Source: an uncultured Patescibacteria group bacterium
GTDB taxonomy: Bacteria; Patescibacteriota; JACMRA01
Direction of reading: 5' to 3'
Assembly: GCA_938041505.1 (NCBI GenBank)
Contig: CALITC010000012.1
Coordinates: 1 to 34,587 of the forward strand
Length of the DNA stretch: 34,587 bases
Shown: positions 2,773 to 34,587 of the stretch, in pieces
Position numbering within the stretch: the stretch's first letter is position 1
Layout of the letters: each line of letters starts with the position of its first letter
Notes under the pieces: generated by a model
The model's input: the letters and a program-made list of their open reading frames with translations, nothing else
Told to the model about the DNA's origin: nothing
The model's database searches: none
Made by a program: the position numbers and the translations under genes

Positions 2773-3204
2773 TTATTGAGGAGTGTCCTTTATCATTATT
2801 GATTGCTTAGAGAGTTTTGTATAAGCCTGTATCATTACTACACCCACCACAACATGCATAAGATTGAGGACAATAAAGGTGCCTATGTTGCCGTCTTCTA
2901 TTCCTGCTGGATTCCAGAAACTAAGTAGTAAAACAAGGTACCCAATAATTGGAGTTACTTTGCCATGATTTTTGGAAAGTAGAGTAATTATCCAATAGAT
3001 TATTGCACTGATAATTACCCCGACTATGCTGGCAGAAATTACAGCAATTATCTGCACAGAAGCCCCAGTTGGCGCAGTATGCCCTTCCGGGAAAGCTCCT
3101 AAAATATCTCCGACAAAGAACAGAAATGCATTCACAATAACGATCGGGACCACTAGCTTAAGAGCGGTAGTAAAAATTTTTCCAATAGATGGTTTTGTAG
3201 TCAT
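2773..3204 (-). CDS. DUF6069-like four-helix membrane protein
   Basis: This 143-residue integral membrane protein has four predicted helices: about residues 14-35, 49-72, 83-98 and 107-126. An extracytoplasmic-looking loop (GAFPEGHTAPTGASVQ) follows the first helix. Size, helix spacing and the F(F)VGDxLGA...FPEGH-like loop resemble the DUF6069 family of unknown function, but this assignment is by eye only. It is a single-gene unit with a good promoter (3239-3211) ending 6 nt before the ATG and a clear terminator after the stop. Confidence 0.65.
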   Translation of the reverse strand: MTTKPSIGKIFTTALKLVVPIVIVNAFLFFVGDILGAFPEGHTAPTGASVQIIAVISASIVGVIISAIIYWIITLLSKNHGKVTPIIGYLVLLLSFWNPAGIEDGNIGTFIVLNLMHVVVGVVMIQAYTKLSKQSIMIKDTPQ

Positions 3205-3210
3205 GTATTT

Positions 3211-3239
3211 ATTTTATACAAGCTGGAAACGGCTGTCAA
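3211..3239 (-). promoter_or_regulatory. Leaderless promoter of the DUF6069-like gene
   Basis: TTGACA (3239-3234), a 17-nt spacer and TAAAAT (3216-3211) are followed by AAATAC and then the ATG at 3204. Transcription starting 7 nt after the -10 box would begin at the start codon itself. Confidence 0.65.
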
Positions 3240-3276
3240 TGTTAGATATAATAAGTTTTTATTAAGATTATCGTTT

Positions 3277-3486
3277 TTATAACCTGAGAGAGGTTATACT
3301 ATAGCCATCATGATATTCTGAAATATTTTTCGTAACGTTGACTTGTGTTAAATCTTTATTGCATCGAGATCCGTAATTATCATTACTAGAATTTGTATTA
3401 TCCGGTGCTGGTTTACAACCACTTAAAAGAAGTAAAGAAAGAATAAATGCTCTGGTAGTATTGTTATATTTTCCTGATTTAATCAC
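3277..3486 (-). CDS. Small putative lipoprotein (69 aa)
   Basis: No family is recognised. The N-terminus has basic residues (MIKSGKYNNTTR) followed by the hydrophobic stretch AFILSLLLLSGC. This ends in a lipobox LLSGC in which Cys24 would be acylated by Lgt and cleaved by signal peptidase II. The mature part is only about 46 residues, polar and Asn/Ser-rich at its start, with one further Cys. It lies alone between the DUF6069-like gene and the beta-CASP nuclease gene, all on the minus strand. The lipobox is the main reason to believe in this short frame. Confidence 0.55.
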   Translation of the reverse strand: MIKSGKYNNTTRAFILSLLLLSGCKPAPDNTNSSNDNYGSRCNKDLTQVNVTKNISEYHDGYSITSLRL

Positions 3487-3589
3487 TATTATTTCCTCAT
3501 GTACTGCAGTATAAACGATTTAGACGATTTAGCCCAACTCTTTAAAAAAGTCAAGAATTCTCCTATTTTTGTAGTTGTGATTTTCGATT

Positions 3590-5056
3590 TTATTTCCATA
3601 ATTCCACAATTTCTGAGAAGTGGGGCCAGTAGGTTTTTACTTTGGCTCCTAAGCGGGCGTGGATTTCTTTTTTGAAGCCTTGGACTTGGTCGGTTTCGCC
3701 GTGCATTAAGAAGATTGTTGGCGGGTTTTGGTCGGCTTTGGGAATATCTCTGACTATGCTGGACGCCCATTTTACTAGTTGCTTTTGGTCGGCGTGGGCT
3801 GAAAACTCGTTGATTTTGTGGTGTTCGATAGCTAGCTTATGGAACTTGCCTTCAATCTCTACCTCCTCTTCACTTTCTAATATTCTTCGACCAAGCGTTC
3901 CTTTGGCCATATAACCTACAATTATGAGTGAGGACTTCGGATCTTCTATGTAGAATTGCAAGTGCTTGAGGATTCTACCTCCGTTCATCATACCACTTCC
4001 GGCTATAATAATACAGGAGCGCTTATGTCCGTTGATGGACTTGGATTGATCTACGGTTTCGAGAATTGAGAGCTTCTTGTAGATAAGCGGGTTGGCTCGG
4101 TTTTTGATCTTGGATTTGATCTCTTTGTCGTACAATTCTGGGTGATCGAGCACCACATTAAGAACCTTGGAAGCCATCGGAGAGTCCAGATAGATCGGAA
4201 TATTCTTAATCTTACCTTCACGCATGAGCGAGACGATGTGATAGATTACTTCCTGGGCCCTCTCGACTGAGAACGAAGGAATGAGAATCTTGCCTTTGCG
4301 AGCGACTGTAGTGTTGATGATTTCACGAAGTCGCTGCTTGGGTTTGAGAACTGGGTGATTGCGATCTCCATACGTAGTCTCAGTGAAGATATGTGTTGTC
4401 TTTGGGAAGCAGCAAATCATTTCGGGGTCTTGAATAATCGGCTTATCAATATTCCCCAAATCACCTGAGAAAATTATATTGCGACCAGTAGAAATCTCAG
4501 TGATAACCACCGAAGCAGAGCCCAGAATATGCCCTGCGTCAAAAAATTCTACTTGGATATTTGGATGGATTTTGAATTTATCGTGGTATTCGTGAGTACG
4601 GAAACGCAACATGGTTTGCTCCACGTCGTGCGAGTCGTAGAGCTTACCAGTCCGCTCATTAAGCTTAGTTGCCGAAGCACGGATCTCACCAGTAAGCTCT
4701 GTTAATTCTGCCATCTCCCCTTCTCCGATATGCCGCGAAGCGTCGTGCATAACAATTTCGGCAATTTCTTTGGTAGCTTCAGTGGAATAGATACGACCTC
4801 CAAAGCCTTTGTTGACGAGCAATGGGATACGACCACAATGATCAAGATGGGCGTGAGTTAGGACAATAGCATCTAGTTTAGGCGCCTCGAAGAGAACTCT
4901 GGAGTTGATCTTGAAGAGGTTGAGACGGTTGCCCACCTGGAACATTCCAGAATCAACACAAAAGCGAAACTTACTCCCATTTTCGGCGGTATATTCGAGA
5001 TAGTATTGAGATCCAGTAACAGTGCGAGCTGCTCCACAAAATTGTACGGTTAACAT
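3590..5056 (-). CDS. Metallo-beta-lactamase/beta-CASP ribonuclease with RMMBL domain
   Basis: This 488-residue protein has the layout of beta-CASP RNases (CPSF73/YSH1-like, related to RNase J): metallo-beta-lactamase core, beta-CASP insert, then an RNA-specificity (RMMBL) motif. Zinc ligands visible are THAHLDHCGRIP (His68, His70, Asp72, His73), DAGHILGSA (His176) and IFSGDLG (Asp199). The beta-CASP part has IPIYLDSPMA and IIAGSGMMNGGRILKHLQ. The C-terminal part has EFSAHADQKQL and FLMHGETDQVQGF. It is expected to cut RNA in the cytoplasm. Start: the ATG at 5056 immediately precedes the conserved MLTVQFCGAARTVTGS strand. A strong promoter ends 6 nt upstream and its -10 box lies inside a 14-bp palindrome, suggesting repression. 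Confidence 0.93.
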   Translation of the reverse strand: MLTVQFCGAARTVTGSQYYLEYTAENGSKFRFCVDSGMFQVGNRLNLFKINSRVLFEAPKLDAIVLTHAHLDHCGRIPLLVNKGFGGRIYSTEATKEIAEIVMHDASRHIGEGEMAELTELTGEIRASATKLNERTGKLYDSHDVEQTMLRFRTHEYHDKFKIHPNIQVEFFDAGHILGSASVVITEISTGRNIIFSGDLGNIDKPIIQDPEMICCFPKTTHIFTETTYGDRNHPVLKPKQRLREIINTTVARKGKILIPSFSVERAQEVIYHIVSLMREGKIKNIPIYLDSPMASKVLNVVLDHPELYDKEIKSKIKNRANPLIYKKLSILETVDQSKSINGHKRSCIIIAGSGMMNGGRILKHLQFYIEDPKSSLIIVGYMAKGTLGRRILESEEEVEIEGKFHKLAIEHHKINEFSAHADQKQLVKWASSIVRDIPKADQNPPTIFLMHGETDQVQGFKKEIHARLGAKVKTYWPHFSEIVELWK

Positions 5057-5059
5057 ACT

Positions 5060-5091
5060 ACTAGTATACTAGTGTTTGTATTTATGGTCAA
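5060..5091 (-). promoter_or_regulatory. Leaderless promoter with palindromic operator for the beta-CASP nuclease
   Basis: TTGACC (5091-5086), 17 nt and TATACT (5068-5063) are followed by AGTAGT and the ATG at 5056. The perfect 14-bp palindrome ACTAGTATACTAGT (5060-5073) covers the -10 box, so a dimeric repressor bound there would block RNA polymerase. Confidence 0.65.
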
Positions 5092-8070: not shown

Positions 8071-8634
8071 TTAAAATTTAACTTCTGGATTTTTCCGTTC
8101 TACTTCTGGGTTCTCTAACTCGAAGAAAGGAGCCGGCGTCGCTTTTGCAAGACCTTTGAAGAGTAATGCTGGGAATTGATCCTGCATTGTATTATAGTCA
8201 GATACAACCTGATTATAAAACCTTCTAGATGCCAGAATTCTATCTTCTGTGTTGGTTAGTTCCTCTTGTAGTGCTAAGAAGTTTTGGTTGGATTTCAAAT
8301 CTGGATAACTCTCAGATAAGGCGAAAAGTTGCCGCAGGGCTCCAGATAACTGGCCTTCTGCAACGGCTTTTTCCTCTCCAAGTCCGGAAATGCTCACAGC
8401 CTGATTACGAGCTTGAATAACTCGTTCCAATGTTTCCGCTTCAAAATTTTTTGATCCCTTAACTGTTTCTACTAAGTTAGGGATTAAGTCATGTCGCCGT
8501 TTCAATTGAACATCAATATCACTAGCGGCTTCCTTTACCTTGTTTTTCAAATTAATGAGGCTATTGTATGTAGCTACGGCGTAGAAGCCTACTACCACGA
8601 TAACAGCAATTAATATTAAAAGTCCGTATACCAT
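8071..8634 (-). CDS. lemA: LemA family protein
   Basis: This 187-residue LemA protein has one N-terminal membrane helix (about 3-24, MVYGLLILIAVIVVVGFYAV) followed by the long helical hairpin typical of the family: YNSLINLKNKVKEAASDIDV, QLKRRHDLIPNLVETVKG and ETLERVIQARNQAV. Then come FALSESYPDLKSNQNF and the conserved ENRI-like TEDRILASRRFYNQVVSDYN. LemA proteins are membrane-anchored with the coiled part outside and their role is unresolved. The gene heads a unit with rpsO. A promoter with TTGACA at 8674 and TATCAT 17 nt later lies just upstream, and a second TTGACA is at 8750. Confidence 0.95.
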   Translation of the reverse strand: MVYGLLILIAVIVVVGFYAVATYNSLINLKNKVKEAASDIDVQLKRRHDLIPNLVETVKGSKNFEAETLERVIQARNQAVSISGLGEEKAVAEGQLSGALRQLFALSESYPDLKSNQNFLALQEELTNTEDRILASRRFYNQVVSDYNTMQDQFPALLFKGLAKATPAPFFELENPEVERKNPEVKF

Positions 8635-8645
8635 ATATGGCAGTG

Positions 8646-8674
8646 ATGATATATCTTGGAATGCAAATTGTCAA
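8646..8674 (-). promoter_or_regulatory. Promoter of lemA-rpsO
   Basis: TTGACA (8674-8669), a 17-nt spacer and TATCAT (8651-8646, 5 of 6) stand 11 nt before the lemA ATG at 8634. Confidence 0.65.
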
Positions 8675-10174: not shown

Positions 10175-11314
10175 CTAATTTATAGTCTGGTTGATTCTAG
10201 TGGCTTCTACAATATTCGCTTCGTGGCCGGCGTTGGTTTCGGCGAAGAGGGTAACTCCGTTGAGGTCTGCTACGAAGAATAAGTAGTCAGTCACTGCTGG
10301 GTTAAGGGCAGCTACTACGTTGGCTAGTTGCGGGTTGGTGATCGGGCCGATTGGGTAGCCTGGGTTGTTGTAGGTGTTGTACTGAGATTGGACGCGCGGA
10401 TCGTCTAGGAAAACACAATCTTCCAGGTCTACTGTCTGCTGACAGACTAGGTTTGGGATGCCATAATTGACTGTTGGGTCAGATGACCATGGAATTCCCT
10501 GTCCTAGGCGGTTGTAGAAGACACTTGCAACTTTGGCTCTTTCTTCTGCCAGCACTGCAGCATCATTATCAGTGACTTGATTAGATCGCCCCGTTTCCCG
10601 CTCCATGACTGAGGCTAGGATAATTGCTTTGTCGAATTCTGTTTTGGTAAGCTCTCCCCCTACTTCGTTCCAGACTTTGGCTTCGAAGTTATTGAGGAAT
10701 TTGATAGTGACTTCATCTGGAGTGGATGGTGTGAAGAATTCGTAGGTGTCTGGATACATGAAGCCTTCGTAGTAATATTTCACGCAGTTGAGGCGATCCC
10801 CATATTCGCAATCCAAAGGCTCTGGCAAAAAAGCATACTGATACAGCCCTGGAGCTACTAAAGCATCAAGAAAATCTTGTTTAGATTCCAGCACGCCTTC
10901 TTCTTCTAGGATGTCGGCGATCTGGTCGACTGTAGTACCTTCTTTGATTGTCACCGCTTTTGAAGCACGGGCGTTGTCTTGAGCTTCTTGCGCTTTGACT
11001 ACAGATTGTTCGTTGATTTGTTCGATAATTTCTTCTGTGGTCGCCGGCAGCTCTAGGTCATATTTACCTGGGAATAATGGCTGGACTTTGTATAGCCTTG
11101 ACACTGAAACAAAAGAATCTTGAGCCACATCATCACGAAGGAGACCTTCGCTAATCGCATTGATGTCGTCGCCACTTTCAACGATAAATGAGTAGTCACC
11201 TTCTGGAGAGTCTGGATTGGCCCCAAAGAATGAATTATATGCCTGCATTCCGAAGAACCCTAACATTCCTACAATACCCACTATGATAACTAACTGAACA
11301 ACACCTTTGGTCAT
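10175..11314 (-). CDS. mltG: Endolytic murein transglycosylase MltG
   Basis: This 379-residue MltG (YceG) cuts nascent glycan strands at the outer face of the membrane and releases them from the synthases. It has one N-terminal membrane helix (about 5-26). A LysM-like region follows with KAVTIKEGTTVDQIADIL (about 119-136). The catalytic domain shows EGFMYPDTYEFF, ILASVMERETGR (catalytic Glu238 by comparison with E. coli MltG), SVFYNRLGQGIPWSSDPTV and YNTYNNPGYPIGPITNP, and ends with the YLFFVAD...FAET part. All family blocks are present in order. It works with the class A PBP encoded at 28999-32367. A TTGACA lies 37 nt before the ATG. Confidence 0.96.
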   Translation of the reverse strand: MTKGVVQLVIIVGIVGMLGFFGMQAYNSFFGANPDSPEGDYSFIVESGDDINAISEGLLRDDVAQDSFVSVSRLYKVQPLFPGKYDLELPATTEEIIEQINEQSVVKAQEAQDNARASKAVTIKEGTTVDQIADILEEEGVLESKQDFLDALVAPGLYQYAFLPEPLDCEYGDRLNCVKYYYEGFMYPDTYEFFTPSTPDEVTIKFLNNFEAKVWNEVGGELTKTEFDKAIILASVMERETGRSNQVTDNDAAVLAEERAKVASVFYNRLGQGIPWSSDPTVNYGIPNLVCQQTVDLEDCVFLDDPRVQSQYNTYNNPGYPIGPITNPQLANVVAALNPAVTDYLFFVADLNGVTLFAETNAGHEANIVEATRINQTIN

Positions 11315-11330: not shown

Positions 11331-11351
11331 TGCATATGCAGTGTTTGTCAA
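11331..11351 (-). promoter_or_regulatory. mltG -35 box and adjacent palindrome
   Basis: TTGACA (11351-11346) stands 37 nt before the mltG ATG. The 10-bp perfect palindrome TGCATATGCA (11340-11331) lies in the spacer position and could be an operator. No clear -10 box is seen. Confidence 0.4.
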
Positions 11352-11767: not shown

Positions 11768-11796
11768 TTGACCAAATCGGTTTTGTGGTGTACCAC
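11768..11796 (+). promoter_or_regulatory. Promoter region of the DnaQ/DinG-like gene
   Basis: TTGACC (11768-11773) lies 36 nt before the ATG at 11804. After 17 nt stands a weak TACCAC (11791-11796). The TTG of this box is in frame with the gene and could be miscalled as its start. Confidence 0.4.
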
Positions 11797-11803
11797 TTAT
11801 GGT

Positions 11804-13852
11804 ATGAAATTCTTATTTGTTGATACCGAAACCAGTGGATTATCTCCTCAGAAGGGGCAGATTATTGAGATTGCTGGGGTCTTGGCAGAACTGGACACTA
11901 CTTCACTTAAGTTTACGGTTCTCTCTGAGTTTGAGCAGACAGTCGCCTTGCGGTCAACAGAGCTAGACGAGCGCGTCACTCGTATCACCGGTATTACCGA
12001 AGAAGAATTAAGGAGTGCGGACAGTATCAGCAAGGTTCAAGAAAACTGGTCAACCTGGCTAGAAACCCTCTCGCCCGAAGGTGCCTACATAGTTGGACAC
12101 TCAGTGGATTTTGACATGGCCTTTCTCAAGGCAGAGAGCTGGCTTTTACCCGATAATTACAAAACACTGGATACTCTTGAGGTGGTTAAGATTCTAATGC
12201 CCGAAGCTTCGGCGATCAATCTTGAGTATTTGGTGCAACGCTACAGTCTCAGCCCTCAACAACGAGAGAGCCGAACCACCAGCAAACTCAAGGCTCATCG
12301 AGCCCTCTACGACACACTCTGTTGCATGCATTTGCTACAATTGTTGTTGTATAAGCTCAAAGAATTACCGGCTTCTCAGGAGTTTTATGAGGTGTTTGCT
12401 GAATTTTTTGATTTACCGTTGCAATTCTACGCTAAGCCGGCGCAATCTTTTGCTGCGCCCCAGCTATTGGCTTTGAACAAAATCGGCTTTGACGGCGAGC
12501 TTATACAACCAAACCTCTACCAAAAAATTAATTTGCTTGGCACCGAAGAAACAACGAAGAAGGCTTCCGAGCTATTCCAATTGCACTACCTACCTCGCAA
12601 ACTTAAGATCATCGCTTTGCAGCTCTATACCCTTTGCCTGGCTAAGATTCAAGGAGAGGGCACAGTCAAATACCACGGGCGCGATCAGGTGGACTACACT
12701 TTTTTTGAGGTACTTCTGGATACTGTGCTCGACTTGGATCAGCCGCAGGATAGTATGCCCGCACTAGAGAAGTTCGAATCGATTGTTACGCATATTCGAA
12801 GCATTAGTGAGAAGAATTTTAAGCTTGGGAAGTTGATGGCTTATTTGGAGATCTACACGATGCTGGTGCCCGACGCTACAGAAGTACAGAAAGTATTGAG
12901 TAGTTATGATTTTTTCTTAATAACTATTCAGCCGTTTTGGAAGCGAAGCGAGTTTATGTATAAGCCTTTTGACCTCAAACCGGAGGAGCAACTAATCCGC
13001 ACCAAAATTGGACAACTTGCCACCCTCCTCCATACGCTTTTTGATCTTGAATGGTCTCAAGAGGGAGATATCTTGAAACAGCTTGTGGCATCAATTAAAT
13101 CATTCTTACAAGAGCTCAAAGATGAGGAAGGTAATCTCTTTGTACGGGCAAATAACGCTATGACGTTTCGCTTCTGGTCTAATCAGATTTTTGTCAGTCA
13201 GCCTTTTCGAGACTTCCGCCTGAACTCATCCCTCGAGAGGGTACTCTTGAAGAAAGAGCCGGTTATAACTACTTGCTATAACGAAACGGATTTTTGGAAA
13301 TTTTTGGAAATTACAGGTACTAAGCGAGTGCTTGAGAATTATCCCAAACTCCAATATAGTTCTGATCCGGATTTTGTGATGTATACTTCTGAGCGCAAAT
13401 TAAAAATATTCTATGTAGAGCAGATTGCCCTTGCTAAAGAAGCGAAAAAACCTGTGATAGTGCTGTGTGGTCAGAACTCAGGGCTACGCGATGCTGAGAA
13501 AATCCTAACAGCTGGTGGGTTTGATCCTGGTGATTATTTGATACTTGGGGACACAGGAAGTCTGACTAAAATTGCCTCAAAGGTAGCTCATGGATTTGTT
13601 GGTGTGGTGGTTGTGAAAGTCAATGACTTCGATTATTTTGGGAGAATGGGTTTGATTGATTACGCTCAGATTTGGATTCTGTGCCAACCTTACTTCGTGA
13701 TTAATAACTACTGGTATCAACTTGCTCGAAGGAGCGGTAACAAGGATGAGTTTATGAAGATATTCAAATTCTTGTATCTCAAAGCCGTGGCTTCTAAGAT
13801 ATATCAGAAGACACACACCACTGTTAACTTCCAAAAGGGGTATTCTATTTAG
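11804..13852 (+). CDS. DnaQ-type 3'-5' exonuclease fused to a degenerate DinG-like helicase region
   Basis: This is a 682-residue protein. Residues 1-185 form a DEDDh exonuclease: FVDTETSG (Asp7, Glu9), IVGHSVDFDMAFL (Asp104), and KAHRALYDT (His165, Asp170). Residues about 455-682 follow the order of the C-terminal helicase domain of DinG: a stretch like the SATL strand (EPVITTCYNETDFWKFLEIT), then KKPVIVLCGQNSGLRDAEKI and GVVVVKVNDFDYFGRMGL, then WILCQPYFVINNYWYQLARR. No GxGKT Walker A, DEAH box or Fe-S cysteine set is visible in the middle part (about 200-450). The family role would be DNA processing; here the exonuclease looks active and the helicase dead. Start chosen at ATG 11804, directly before the first exonuclease strand. 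Confidence 0.75.
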   Translation: MKFLFVDTETSGLSPQKGQIIEIAGVLAELDTTSLKFTVLSEFEQTVALRSTELDERVTRITGITEEELRSADSISKVQENWSTWLETLSPEGAYIVGHSVDFDMAFLKAESWLLPDNYKTLDTLEVVKILMPEASAINLEYLVQRYSLSPQQRESRTTSKLKAHRALYDTLCCMHLLQLLLYKLKELPASQEFYEVFAEFFDLPLQFYAKPAQSFAAPQLLALNKIGFDGELIQPNLYQKINLLGTEETTKKASELFQLHYLPRKLKIIALQLYTLCLAKIQGEGTVKYHGRDQVDYTFFEVLLDTVLDLDQPQDSMPALEKFESIVTHIRSISEKNFKLGKLMAYLEIYTMLVPDATEVQKVLSSYDFFLITIQPFWKRSEFMYKPFDLKPEEQLIRTKIGQLATLLHTLFDLEWSQEGDILKQLVASIKSFLQELKDEEGNLFVRANNAMTFRFWSNQIFVSQPFRDFRLNSSLERVLLKKEPVITTCYNETDFWKFLEITGTKRVLENYPKLQYSSDPDFVMYTSERKLKIFYVEQIALAKEAKKPVIVLCGQNSGLRDAEKILTAGGFDPGDYLILGDTGSLTKIASKVAHGFVGVVVVKVNDFDYFGRMGLIDYAQIWILCQPYFVINNYWYQLARRSGNKDEFMKIFKFLYLKAVASKIYQKTHTTVNFQKGYSI

Positions 13853-13894: not shown

Positions 13895-13900
13895 TTGACC
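13895..13900 (+). promoter_or_regulatory. TTGACC -35-like box before the DegT-like gene
   Basis: TTGACC in the context TATTGACCAAA, 39 nt before the ATG at 13934. The same TATTGACCAA context precedes the genes at 11804 (ATTGACCAAA) and 16432. No good -10 box is visible (TATATT lies at a short 13-nt spacing). Confidence 0.35.
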
Positions 13901-13933: not shown

Positions 13934-15160
13934 ATGAACAAACAAAAACAATGGGCTGTCATCAAGAGGCTTTTTGGAGATATTCGTAATTCATCAAGAC
14001 TATATACCGGCAATAGTATTAAGAAACTAATCAAAGAGCAAGTCCTCGAACTCAAACAGCCATTTAACAACAACCCTATTAATTCTGGGCGCTGGGCTGC
14101 TTACTGTCATTATTCTCGAGTGATGGCGTTTTCTAACTTACTCGACAAACACCAGATAGACACCCAAAGCACAGTAGTGGTTCATCCTCTTCTTCCAGCA
14201 GAAATGGTTGATGAGATAATTAGACGTGGGGCAGCAATGATCGTGGTCGATATCAGCATAAACTCACTTGCGATGGATCACGCGCAGTTGGCAACTGCAA
14301 TCGAGTCAGAACCTGATTTGATAATTCACTTTACCGATAATGGCCTATGCAGTGAAATAACTGAGCTTGTAGATTATACAAACGCCTTACGTATTCCTAC
14401 TCTACTCCATGTTGAGAGTGATCTCCCTAACCAAGAGCTGCTGGATTTGTTTGAGAAGATCAATTTTGGTTCAGTGCTTTGGAATTTTGGCGACTCATTC
14501 TTGGATGATCAGCTCAACAAAGTCTTGGATATATCACTCAAAAATCAAAAATGGTATGTCTCATGGTTTATTGAGAATAGAACCCATAGCTCCCTCGAGT
14601 ACCACCTTAGCTCATCAAAAGATACGACAGTGCCCCTCTTAGAAAATTATTTATTCTTACTTCTCAAAGACTACGAACAACACGGCTGGAAAGAAAAATT
14701 ACTACCTCTCGCTTATGGGGTACTCAAGCAAGATAAAGTCTCCAACAAAGCTCAGGCACAACAAAAATTAGCTGAATCGTTTCAAGATATTTTTACGTCA
14801 GCAATTCCGGATGTTGTGTTTGAGATAGAACTCCTAGACCCTATTGGAATGAGGCCAAATAACATACAGGATGTTCATGATCTTGAACACTATATACATG
14901 CAAAAAATCAAGAATTGTTTAGTTACGTTCAAAGCCGTGAAGGTATTAACGTCGAACCTCACGATGTCAAAAGATCTTATTTTAAAGCTGTATTATTCAC
15001 AACTAGTAAGTCAGCTTGGACTCGATACTTCCAGGATAAAGACCTCCAGCTTAAGAATTTTGAAGTGCACCCTGAAATTAATAAACTGAAGCATACAAAT
15101 GTGTCACTTCTTGTTAATCAAGGACTAGTTGCAGACTTTTCACAGTTTTTGTATAACTAA
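13934..15160 (+). CDS. DegT/DnrJ/EryC1 aminotransferase-like protein, probably without the PLP lysine
   Basis: This 408-residue protein has a central part (about residues 50-200) that follows the large-domain layout of DegT-type PLP aminotransferases. It contains SGRWAAY...MAFSNLLDKH, then STVVVHPLLPAEMVDEIIRR, GAAMIVVDISINSLAMD and ESEPDLIIHFTDNG. These correspond to the family's GDEVIVP..., GAxPVFVDIDPxTxNxD and TKAIIPVHLYG. In the family the next strand carries the Asp that holds the pyridine nitrogen (EDAAQ) and then the Schiff-base Lys (SFxxTKxL). Here these positions read LLHVESDLPN and VLWNFGDSFLDDQ, with no Lys. I infer a non-catalytic relative; the C-terminal half is not recognised. 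It lies 81 bp after the DinG-like gene and 9 bp before the DUF192 gene. Confidence 0.5.
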   Translation: MNKQKQWAVIKRLFGDIRNSSRLYTGNSIKKLIKEQVLELKQPFNNNPINSGRWAAYCHYSRVMAFSNLLDKHQIDTQSTVVVHPLLPAEMVDEIIRRGAAMIVVDISINSLAMDHAQLATAIESEPDLIIHFTDNGLCSEITELVDYTNALRIPTLLHVESDLPNQELLDLFEKINFGSVLWNFGDSFLDDQLNKVLDISLKNQKWYVSWFIENRTHSSLEYHLSSSKDTTVPLLENYLFLLLKDYEQHGWKEKLLPLAYGVLKQDKVSNKAQAQQKLAESFQDIFTSAIPDVVFEIELLDPIGMRPNNIQDVHDLEHYIHAKNQELFSYVQSREGINVEPHDVKRSYFKAVLFTTSKSAWTRYFQDKDLQLKNFEVHPEINKLKHTNVSLLVNQGLVADFSQFLYN

Positions 15161-16391: not shown

Positions 16392-16397
16392 TTGACC
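16392..16397 (+). promoter_or_regulatory. TTGACC -35-like box before the gene at 16432
   Basis: TTGACC in the context TATTGACCAAT, 40 nt before the ATG at 16432. No clear -10 box. Confidence 0.3.
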
Positions 16398-16431: not shown

Positions 16432-17046
16432 ATGCTTCTAGACAAGCTTGGTAAACAAAAAATGTTAAAATTTGTTCGAATTATTAGAGATCTTGAGTTT
16501 CTTTTATACCTCATATTAGGTGTTTATGGGTTCATGTTTTTATATGAAGTTTACATCTGCGACAACGCGACTTCTTGTGATTTTGTTTTTGTCAAAGGAT
16601 CTGTGGTGACAATGATGGCTCAGCTTGGTTGTGTTGTAGCAGCTATCACAAATGTTTTTTTGATAATATCAAACTTTGAGCTTTTCGACAAAAACAAAGA
16701 GGGTAATATTTTTTTTAAATCTAGTGTAATTGGCCTTGGTGTTGGGTATGGACTTATATCGCTGTTTTTCAAACAACTTATTCTAAATGGTGGCCTGGGC
16801 GACAACCAAGGGATTTTTATGGTATTGCTTTTGCTGTTCTTTGTTTGTGCTTCATTTTTGTTACAAGACAAGTACTCATGGGATCATAGCTCCTTATTTG
16901 TTAAAGTTAGGCTATCAGTATTCATTCTTAACTATATATTATTTTTGGTATCACCAGTCTCAGGATTGATTTTTGCTTTTCTTCTTGTTGGACCTATACT
17001 TTTCTTCATTCCTTACTTACCTGGTGTGCGAAAGCTTCGCATGTAA
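16432..17046 (+). CDS. Hypothetical six-helix membrane protein (204 aa)
   Basis: No family is recognised. About six hydrophobic segments are visible: near residues 24-44, 58-82, 95-115, 120-140, 150-168 and 172-190. A short cysteine-containing loop follows helix 1 (VYICDNATSCDFVF), with two Cys eight apart that could form a disulfide outside. The N-terminus is basic. It is a single gene between the unknown anchored protein and ileS. Confidence 0.7.
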   Translation: MLLDKLGKQKMLKFVRIIRDLEFLLYLILGVYGFMFLYEVYICDNATSCDFVFVKGSVVTMMAQLGCVVAAITNVFLIISNFELFDKNKEGNIFFKSSVIGLGVGYGLISLFFKQLILNGGLGDNQGIFMVLLLLFFVCASFLLQDKYSWDHSSLFVKVRLSVFILNYILFLVSPVSGLIFAFLLVGPILFFIPYLPGVRKLRM

Positions 17047-24406: not shown

Positions 24407-24829
24407 ATGGCCAAATTTGTTGACAATAAGAAAAAAAAGGTGAAAACTCACTCTTGTATGAATAAAGTCTTACATGTGCGCAAATCCAAGCTTAATCAAA
24501 AGAAACGAAAGAGCAGAGAACTTATCCTCACTGTCTCAATGTTTTTGTTGAACCAAGAAACTCTCAAAAACCAGTTTTGGACTGTTAAGTCTGTGCACTA
24601 TGATACGACTGCTCAAAAAGTTAGTGTTGGAATAAATACCACTAACGGTAAGCTTGGAACAACCTTAACTAAACTCCGTAAGACTTCTAAATACCTTTCA
24701 GACTATTTGTACGAATATGGTTTAACATTTAGAAAGGCAAAAATTGTTTTCTTTGTAGATAAAGAAGACGTTGAAATTGAACGAATTTACAACCTTCTCC
24801 ATTCGATTGAGGGAGAGCAAACTAATTAA
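24407..24829 (+). CDS. RbfA-like ribosome-binding factor
   Basis: This 140-residue protein resembles RbfA, the KH-fold factor that helps 16S rRNA 5'-end maturation. A basic N-terminal part (DNKKKKVKTHSCMNKVLHVR, KSKLNQKKRKSRELI) is followed by WTVKSVHYDTTAQKVSVGIN, TLTKLRKTSKYLSDYLYEYG and KAKIVFFVDKEDVEIERIYN. These parallel the RbfA pattern VTDVEVSPDLKxAxVYVS, LxKAxGxLRxELAKRLxLR and PELxFxxDxSxxxxxRIxxLL. A TTG further upstream is less likely than the ATG at 24407. It begins 44 bp from the divergent tRNA-Ser and ends 11 bp before yidC, so the two are probably co-transcribed. In most bacteria rnpA sits here instead. Confidence 0.55.
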   Translation: MAKFVDNKKKKVKTHSCMNKVLHVRKSKLNQKKRKSRELILTVSMFLLNQETLKNQFWTVKSVHYDTTAQKVSVGINTTNGKLGTTLTKLRKTSKYLSDYLYEYGLTFRKAKIVFFVDKEDVEIERIYNLLHSIEGEQTN

Positions 24830-24840
24830 AACACGATTCT

Positions 24841-25812
24841 ATGAACCCATTTGGACAATTATACAGTAACGTGGTGTCTAAACCATTGTTAAATTTACTT
24901 CAGATTTTTTTTGATCTCACGAATGACATTGGTTACTCCATTATTATCTTAGCAATTGTAGTTAACCTACTGATGTGGCCTCTATTTGTTAAAACCTATT
25001 TGAACGGTCAGAAGTTAAAATACTTACAGCCCAAGCTTAAGGAGATACAGGAAAAGTTCAAGGATGATAGAGAAATGTTACTCCAAGAAACTATTAAGTT
25101 TAATCGCAAACATGGAATTAGCAACGGGTCGTTTATTCTTGTTTTGTTTCTACAAATTTTGATTGCTTCTGGATTGTATATTCTTACTCGAAATGTTAGC
25201 GATGGCATTGAGCTTGATGGCCTTTATGAGATGATTTTTGATCGAACCAAAGCCACATTCGATACTACAGCGTTTGGCTTTTTGGATATAGCTCAAGATG
25301 GTCGGGATTATATTGCCTTGCCAATCCTTAATGCTGCACTATCTTTCTTCTACGGTTTCTATAACTGGAAACTAACACCAAAGCTACCGGCAGTGCCCAA
25401 AGCCAAATCTACTAAAAAGACAGACACCCCGTTTGATCCTGAAACGACTCAAAAAGCAATGCAAGTACAGATGATGTTCTTCTTACCTGTCTTCCTGTTT
25501 TTCGTTAACTTAGGTTTGCCAGTAGGAGTTAGTATCTACTTTGCAATTGTTAACCTTATGTCCCTGGTTAGACAAGTGTTTGTCACTCAGTACTATACAA
25601 GTCATATCAAAACTTTTATTAGTGACCTTTCTGACACCGACCCTATTAGTCGCGACAACAAAACCGTAGTTACCGATGCAATTGTAGTGAATGAAGAAGT
25701 TGCTACAAAAAGTCTGAAGCAGGATAAAACAAGAAAGCCTGTCAAGAAGAGTAAGAAAAAAGCCTCTAAAAAGAAGAGTGGAGGAACTAAGAAGAAATCT
25801 TCTAAAGCTTAA
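24841..25812 (+). CDS. yidC: Membrane protein insertase YidC/Oxa1
   Basis: This 323-residue insertase folds proteins into the cytoplasmic membrane with or without SecYEG. It is the short, Gram-positive/CPR-type version lacking the large periplasmic domain. It starts MNPFGQLYSNVVSKPLLNLL. Helix 1 (about 30-50) reads IGYSIIILAIVVNLLMWPLF. The cytoplasmic hairpin contains QPKLKEIQEKFKDDREMLLQ. Further helices lie at about 97-113, 160-180 and 203-245. The C-terminus (about 285-323) is very Lys-rich, a known ribosome-contact feature in several YidC proteins. Its stop codon overlaps the stop of the convergent gene at 25809. Confidence 0.95.
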   Translation: MNPFGQLYSNVVSKPLLNLLQIFFDLTNDIGYSIIILAIVVNLLMWPLFVKTYLNGQKLKYLQPKLKEIQEKFKDDREMLLQETIKFNRKHGISNGSFILVLFLQILIASGLYILTRNVSDGIELDGLYEMIFDRTKATFDTTAFGFLDIAQDGRDYIALPILNAALSFFYGFYNWKLTPKLPAVPKAKSTKKTDTPFDPETTQKAMQVQMMFFLPVFLFFVNLGLPVGVSIYFAIVNLMSLVRQVFVTQYYTSHIKTFISDLSDTDPISRDNKTVVTDAIVVNEEVATKSLKQDKTRKPVKKSKKKASKKKSGGTKKKSSKA

Positions 25813-26642
25813 TTGGTTAAGAACTTTGATGTAACCTCCTCGGGTATTACATCATTAATATATTGCCTGTAAGCATCCGAGAATGACTTCACGAAGTTAT
25901 CAAGTTCTGCGTTTTCTGGTAAATCATCACCCTGTTGAACTATGGTAAAAAAGTTGTCTATTTTCTTCACATTCCTTGTATTAAAGCTATATTGATATAC
26001 ATCCATTGTGACAATAGTTGCGTCTTGGCTTACAATATTGGCGATATAGATACTATCCACAGTTTTCTTTCCTAGTACCACCCCTGCTCCCTGATTGCAA
26101 AACTGACCTCCGAAGCCATCTCTTTTATCGAAGTATAATCCAGCCTGACAATTGATAATGTTAAGTATTGATTCACCCTCGCTACCCGCTTCAATAATTG
26201 AACAGAGTTTGTCTGAGACGGTTGTTGTAGATGTTGAAAAAGGATAGTCGCAATCACCTTGTAGGTCGAAGTTGGTTGCGGCAACATCAATAGGTTTTAT
26301 TTTTTCTTGAGTTTCAACTTCTTGATCAGAAAAACTACTATTCGTAGACGGACGAGAAATAATCTCATCGGAACTATCCTCTTCTGGAATAGCTTCTGTA
26401 TCTTCATTAGGTAAAGCGACTGAAACCCTTTCTTGAAGGTTGCGGATGTCAGAATCTCTTAGGAGTAATTTTTTTTCAAGTTCAAAATTTTCATCTTCAA
26501 GAGATTTAAGGCGATCTGGGTCAGTGTTTGATTGTAGTAGCAACACTCTTTGGGTAAGAGCTATGTTGGTAGCAACAGATACAAACAATAGACTGAAAAT
26601 AAGAGTTCCTACAACTCTTTGATTTTTTAAGATATTACGCAT
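25809..26642 (-). CDS. Membrane-anchored coiled-coil protein (277 aa)
   Basis: No family is recognised. An N-terminal helix (about residues 12-31, VGTLIFSLLFVSVATNIALT) is followed by a short coiled-coil (DRLKSLEDENFELEKKLLLR). An acidic Ser-rich linker (about 75-130) leads to an exported domain with four Cys (GDCDYPFS, DKLCSII, NCQAGLYF, QFCNQGAG) that may form two disulfides. The ATG at 26642 was chosen because it sits just before the membrane helix. The frame opens to 26780, but that extension would run through the tig terminator. It is convergent with yidC and the stop codons overlap. Confidence 0.65.
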   Translation of the reverse strand: MRNILKNQRVVGTLIFSLLFVSVATNIALTQRVLLLQSNTDPDRLKSLEDENFELEKKLLLRDSDIRNLQERVSVALPNEDTEAIPEEDSSDEIISRPSTNSSFSDQEVETQEKIKPIDVAATNFDLQGDCDYPFSTSTTTVSDKLCSIIEAGSEGESILNIINCQAGLYFDKRDGFGGQFCNQGAGVVLGKKTVDSIYIANIVSQDATIVTMDVYQYSFNTRNVKKIDNFFTIVQQGDDLPENAELDNFVKSFSDAYRQYINDVIPEEVTSKFLTN

Positions 26643-26697
26643 ATTAGTAATAATATCATTTATTTCAATTGCTGTAAATATTTTAACTATGATGGCT

Positions 26698-34199: not shown

Positions 34200-34517
34200 G
34201 AAGAGATTCCACATGAAAGCGGTCCTGTGATTTGTGGACTTGCTTAACCATCCATACAAAACACTATTAAGTAGTGCTGAAGATAGGATCACTAGATTAG
34301 ACACAAGCATTAATCAATAAAATACAACATCATTTATTTTCCTTATTTTCTTGTAGAATATCAATATCACAAATCAAAATTTCCAATATACAGTAAGAAT
34401 GAAGGTCTTTTCCAAAAAAAATCACCTTATGACAGCACTCAAGACTATTTTCATAGTCACAACTCTACTACTACAGGATTGACTATATTTGATTATTGTA
34501 TAAGGATGTGTAGTAAT
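34200..34517. other. Intergenic stretch between tRNA-Thr and the probable infB start
   Basis: This AT-rich, 318-bp stretch holds no convincing gene. It contains a small hairpin (CACTA/TAGTG near 34262-34276). It also contains one 27-codon frame at 34399-34482 with a basic start and hydrophobic end (MKVFSKKNHLMTALKTIFIV), which may be a tiny membrane peptide or chance. TTGACT at 34479-34484, 39 nt before ATG 34518, is the probable -35 box of the next gene; TATAAG follows at a short 14-nt spacing. Confidence 0.4.
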
Positions 34518-34587
34518 ATGAACATCTCAACTTTAGCAAAAATTCTTGGTGTGTCTATCAGTGATCTACGTGATACTGCCAACGAGA
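34518..34587 (+). CDS. Start of probable translation initiation factor IF-2 (3' part outside window)
   Basis: Only 23 codons are visible: MNISTLAKILGVSISDLRDT followed by ANE. The pattern (I-S-x-L-A-K-x-L-G-V-S-x-x-x-L) matches the small N-terminal IF2_N domain that begins many infB products and binds the ribosome or tRNA-synthetase-like partners. A helix-turn-helix regulator could look similar over so short a stretch, so the symbol is withheld. A TTGACT box lies 39 nt before the ATG. Confidence 0.5.
   Translation, partial: MNISTLAKILGVSISDLRDTANE

Follow-up and report, generated by a model that had tools for sequence, protein, structure and literature searches.

What does it mean for the expression of two genes in this stretch of DNA that each carries a complete promoter ending a few nucleotides before its start codon, and how general is such an arrangement in the organism? 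The window, meaning the whole stretch of 34,587 nucleotides analysed here, is contig 12 of a 26-contig Patescibacteria assembly of 1,124,582 bases (38.5% GC, completeness 68.8%), a genome that we label G000, its five family members being G001–G005. The first-pass annotation had described a TTGAC(A/C)-N17-TAxAxT promoter lying exactly 6 nt from the ATG of the genes starting at 3204 and 5056, both on the minus strand, and this geometry proved accurate in every detail. The first gene (2773–3204) encodes a protein with a DUF6069 domain (Pfam PF19545, 9.4e-10). Its putative leaderless promoter, the best of all scored sites, consists of a −35 box TTGACA (3234–3239, minus strand) and, 17 nt further on, a −10 box TAAAAT (3211–3216), which leaves 6 nt to the ATG (3204–3202), where the mRNA is predicted to begin. 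The second gene (3590–5056) encodes a beta-CASP metallo-beta-lactamase of the RNA-processing type (Pfam Beta-Casp, 4.4e-35; RMMBL). Here the −35 box is TTGACC (5086–5091, minus strand) and the −10 box TATACT (5063–5068), again with 17 nt between them and 6 nt to the ATG (5056–5054), the predicted 5′ end. Both promoters outscored all 300 shuffled 60-nt upstream regions.

To place these two promoters in their genomic setting, 897 genes were called in G000 with our own caller, which uses a hexamer coding score and no upstream signal. Of these, 649 count as transcript-leading, either because their neighbour is divergent or because 60 nt or more separate them from a same-strand gene upstream. Tight spacing is scarce, with about 108 same-strand gene pairs separated by gaps of less than 25 nt among the 897 genes. 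An open reading frame of 6,205 amino acids that reaches the end of its contig (C9:25418–44035) is very large for a 1.1-Mb genome. In an RpoB tree the closest rows to G000 are those of Patescibacteria/Saccharibacteria, but its branch is long and the support 87%, so that any assignment to a class is tentative; it falls within kinship groups of small genomes. Recoding of TGA as in Gracilibacteria was considered and rejected, as 79 of the called genes terminate in TGA.

The first-pass annotation had tied its proposal to an enrichment of TTGAC boxes around −37 from start codons across the genome, and a sharp peak of roughly 20-fold is present. Among the 649 leading genes, 98 have a TTGAC starting at −40 to −35, a 28-fold excess over 100 dinucleotide shuffles, in which the count averaged 3.5 and never exceeded 9. 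The 5-nt bin from −40 to −36 alone holds 87 occurrences, compared with about 4 far upstream; it is flanked by a trough of 12 at −45 to −41 and then by a broad hump between −50 and −80. The full arrangement TTGAC-N18-TANNNT-N6–9-ATG occurs 21 times, compared with 0.05 in shuffles. A promoter model fitted by expectation-maximisation to the upstream regions, with a flat prior on position, converged on TTGACA-N17-TATAAT and yielded about 514 promoters, 91% of them with a spacer of 17. The gap between the end of the −10 box and the ATG is bimodal: 117 expected promoters have gaps of 6–9 nt, 27 of 12–18 nt and 231 of 19–50 nt. For gaps of 5–11 nt, the same model found 145.6 promoters in the real upstream regions and 0.1–0.8 in shuffled ones. 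The leaderless or nearly leaderless class thus defined accounts for 28.3% of detected promoters (95% bootstrap interval, 25.0–31.8%), 22% of leading genes and 16% of all genes, and −10-only promoters are undercounted in these figures because the caller requires a recognisable −35 box. Leaderless initiation had been put forward as a main mode in this organism; at 28% of promoters it is a major one but not the majority, since the larger share has gaps of 19–50 nt, which imply short leaders. Most genes seem to own a promoter, and operons appear to be short. Logos averaged across all starts show hardly any −10 or −35 element, since the gaps vary and the two classes blur one another; to conclude from such logos that no promoter signal exists would be wrong.

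The eight further boxes that had been listed in the window (TTGAC or TTGTC type) are all present, 35–40 nt before an ATG, but most of their −10 partners are weak and the gaps are 7–11 nt instead of exactly 6, so that each of these candidate promoters is weaker than those at 3204 and 5056. The −10 partner is good for the box of the LemA gene (8071–8634, LemA domain; TTGACA at 8669–8674 on the minus strand, TATCAT at 8646–8651, gap 11) and fair for that of a flavodoxin-like gene at 2164 (Flavodoxin_2; TTGTCA at 2128–2133 on the plus strand, TACTGT at 2151–2156, gap 7). It is poor for the six others. Two of these have a TTGACA box: that of msrA (1071–1592, PMSR domain; 1034–1039 on the plus strand, weak −10 AAGAAT at 1057–1062, gap 8) and that of a YceG-like gene (10175–11314; 11346–11351 on the minus strand, weak −10 CACGCT, gap 8). 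The remaining four lie on the plus strand. TTGACC at 11768–11773, 36 nt before the ATG at 11804, has a weak −10 and reached p<0.03 only, and was given no promoter class. TTGACC at 13895–13900 lies 39 nt before the ATG at 13934 (gap 10), TTGACC at 16392–16397 lies 40 nt before that at 16432, and TTGACT at 34479–34484 lies 39 nt before that at 34518, in a gene that reaches the contig end. Two sites assigned to the leaderless class were added to the earlier list: TTGACA at 24420–24425 (plus strand), before the ATG at 24458 with a gap of 9, and TTTACA at 26673–26678 (minus strand), before the called start of the gene 25809–26642 with a gap of 7.

The bases around the expected transcription start shift with the gap. 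At gap 6, a pyrimidine occupies −1 in 18 of 19 genes; at gap 8, A is found at −2 and T at −1 in 25/29 genes each; at gap 9, A is at −2 in 22/29 and T at −1 in 19/29. This shift fits an initiator placed at the start codon or a few nucleotides from it. As the usual distance from −10 box to start is 6–7 nt, gaps of 6–7 nt would put the first transcribed base on the A of the ATG and gaps of 8–9 nt on the A at −2, giving 5′-AUG or 5′-AUAUG. Polymerase might instead begin 2–5 nt before the ATG throughout and leave ultra-short leaders. Half of the class, with gaps of 8–9 nt and the A−2, T−1 bases, is consistent with a start at A−2, whereas genes with gaps of 6–7 nt suit initiation at the ATG's own A, as the pyrimidine at −1 of the gap-6 genes indicates. 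We regard this alternative as possible but rather unlikely, and as usual definitions of leaderless mRNA allow up to about 5 nt, it refines the leaderless reading more than it competes with it. That the class, with about 28% of the detected promoters, is leaderless or nearly so is in our judgement very probable.

A leaderless or near-leaderless mRNA would be read without a Shine-Dalgarno sequence, and such sequences had been described as nearly absent. This description holds for the leaderless class, where AGGA, GGAG or GAGG precede 6 of 126 genes (7.0 expected, the level of chance), and likewise for downstream genes in tight spacing (2/107), but not for leadered genes, which are enriched about threefold: 51 of 222 carry one of the three 4-mers against 17.9 expected, and GGAGG or AGGAG occurs 17 times against 2.3. 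The anti-Shine-Dalgarno CCTCC is ordinary in the 16S tail of one relative (the 16S gene of G000 runs off contig C2). Loss of ribosomal protein S1 as the cause was rejected, as a four-domain S1 gene is present (C1:10311–11459) and itself belongs to the leaderless class. Ribosomal protein S21 (PF01165) was undetected in G000 and all five family members (six genomes); its absence is not diagnostic, because it went undetected in several control species too.

The lack of Shine-Dalgarno sequences could also mean that start codons are misassigned, with ordinary promoters, normal leaders and translation that really begins further downstream, at an in-frame codon that follows a Shine-Dalgarno sequence. 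Such misannotation has been reported in Deinococcus (PMC12340547), and SD-like 4-mers precede 12% of the in-frame start codons downstream of the ATG in leaderless-class genes versus 6% of those in leadered genes, so that a few starts of the class may indeed be misassigned. Applied to the class as a whole, this explanation is improbable. The other 88% of downstream alternatives have no such 4-mer; the coding composition of codons 2–13 is the same as in leadered genes, the coding signature beginning at the ATG; and orthologous proteins are conserved from the called methionine onward. The sharp register of 6–9 nt to the called ATG, with troughs on both sides, would be left unexplained.

The boxes of the two classes do not differ. 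Called leaderless promoters match TTGAC at 88–99% per position and have a spacer of 17 in 121 of 126 cases, with the proviso that a −35 box makes a site more likely to be called, and the −35, the −10 and the spacer are alike in leaderless and leadered promoters. This equality implies that the leaderless class arises from placement and not from a separate sigma factor. It also speaks against the boxes being binding sites of a regulator that overlap start codons rather than housekeeping promoters, as does the unrelated nature of the housekeeping genes concerned, and we give that explanation hardly any weight. The class includes dnaG, hisS, ruvB, tyrS, gyrB and the genes for GAPDH, a UvrD/PcrA-type helicase, a VirB4-type ATPase and the S1 protein; with such varied functions it is unspecialised. 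It was found on 23 of 26 contigs and is therefore not due to one contaminating contig. Chance or composition, by which an AT-rich genome would yield TATAAT-like words beside ATGs, can appeal to the TANNNT words common throughout the upstream regions, but it is refuted for practical purposes by the 28-fold excess over dinucleotide shuffles of TTGAC, a word that is not AT-rich, at the 17-nt spacing, and by 146 fitted promoters against fewer than one in shuffles.

Relatives were compared first by pattern counts. Those of the strict pattern versus the reversed pattern are 47/4 in G000 and 47/6, 37/4, 37/4 and 17/6 in four of the five family members. The fifth, G002 (3/4), is the only sampled family member largely without the leaderless geometry, which suggests that it has largely lost an arrangement that its close relatives kept. 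When partial samples of 120–184 kb went through gene calling and the promoter fit, the peak at gaps of 5–11 nt was reproduced in G001, G003 and G004 and was the foremost class in G037 and G177; a fit independent of the G000 matrices gave the same gap peak in other Patescibacteria families. Across a sample of 380 genomes of the phylum, most exceed their own control, and the highest counts occur within the family of G000. Passed through the same pipeline, Escherichia coli has no peak at gaps of 5–11 nt and SD-like 4-mers before 45–67% of its genes.

Individual genes tell a more varied story. Orthologues of the 5056 gene (48–66% identical), whose N termini align with it, have TTGACA-N17-box-N6-ATG in G001 and G004, which represent two genera, while in G005, which represents a third, the gap is 9; the G002 orthologue has a different, leadered upstream region. 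A search of contigs with peptide patterns did not find loci related to that of the beta-CASP protein. The orthologue of the YceG-like gene in G003 has TTGACA at −37, in the same place. Other comparisons within these small samples were mixed, and many orthologues of leaderless genes lacked a recognisable promoter.

A second and less certain signal is a tendency of starts in this family to have T at −1, irrespective of Shine-Dalgarno sequences and, in G002, of leaderless promoters. In G002, which has almost no leaderless promoters and SD-like 4-mers before 0% of its genes, T precedes 81% of 74 starts as against 42% of other upstream ATGs, C and G accounting for about 1% each; in G003 the corresponding values are 78% and 42%. 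In G000, T stands at −1 in 72 of the 92 closely spaced downstream genes whose gap is 1 nt or more, and G in none, and the leaderless class has a clear excess of T. Leadered genes exceed other upstream ATGs only slightly (0.53 versus 0.48), and we do not claim the signal for all genes of G000 because they are barely above background. The anticodon loop of the candidate initiator tRNA reads CUCAUAA, in which A37 could pair with the U at −1. Tentatively, the family of G000 may have largely abandoned Shine-Dalgarno recognition and may read starts through the U immediately before the AUG (UAUG, possibly by pairing with A37), whether the start lies within the mRNA or at its free 5′ end (as AUG or AUAUG).

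Promoters of this kind are known elsewhere. In Deinococcus-Thermus, the −10 box of leaderless genes adjoins the open reading frame (PMC12340547; PMC3160421). G000 shares with these bacteria a −10 box a few nucleotides before the ATG, a spacing requirement, the lack of a Shine-Dalgarno sequence and the fraction of transcripts concerned, between about one quarter and one third. Unlike their TANNNT with an optional −35, G000, which belongs to a different phylum, has a nearly invariant TTGAC at 17-nt spacing; the weak or dispensable −35 that marks the −10-only type of Deinococcus-Thermus was not encountered in G000, where the caller could miss such promoters. Mycobacteria and other Actinobacteria (PMC3898074, PMC4633059) likewise mix leaderless transcripts, around a quarter of the total, with leadered transcripts carrying Shine-Dalgarno sequences, but their genomes are GC-rich and their starts were mapped experimentally, whereas G000 has 38.5% GC and 1.1 Mb and its starts are predictions. 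Leaderless genes have been inferred from promoter position in published work by the same approach, and the fractions in G000 (16% of all genes, 28% of promoters) fall within what it has given. The closely spaced downstream genes, with no Shine-Dalgarno sequence and low G upstream, resemble the SD-independent, AT-rich initiation of Bacteroidetes (PMC9581028; PMC5397173), from which G000 differs by its strong T at −1 and by the leaderless promoters alongside. Within the limited literature searched, we found no paper on leaderless transcription in Patescibacteria or CPR. The kind is thus already known from Deinococcus and Actinobacteria; what is new is the lineage in which it occurs and the strength of the −35.

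In the mechanism that we propose, housekeeping promoters of the sigma-70 type (TTGACA-N17-TATAAT) would be positioned against the start codon itself. With a gap of 6–7 nt, RNA polymerase would take the A of the ATG as its first base, and with a gap of 8–9 nt the A two bases before it (5′-AUAUG). Ribosomes would presumably bind the 5′-terminal AUG, and the remaining promoters would give short leaders, a minority of them with Shine-Dalgarno sequences. The account starts from what is read directly in the DNA, namely promoter geometry, its excess over chance, two promoter classes, a class-specific lack of Shine-Dalgarno sequences and conservation, and from these we infer the actual 5′ ends and the mode of ribosome entry.

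Patescibacteria account for a very large share of the diversity of bacteria and are almost uncultured. Their ribosomes are reduced, and their way of initiating translation has received hardly any study. So sizeable a leaderless class bears on the prediction of gene starts, on promoter design in the few genetically tractable members and on ideas of what their ribosomes are able to do. Exact start-site predictions are now available for named genes, and the loss of the arrangement in G002 against its retention in relatives offers an evolutionary comparison within the family.
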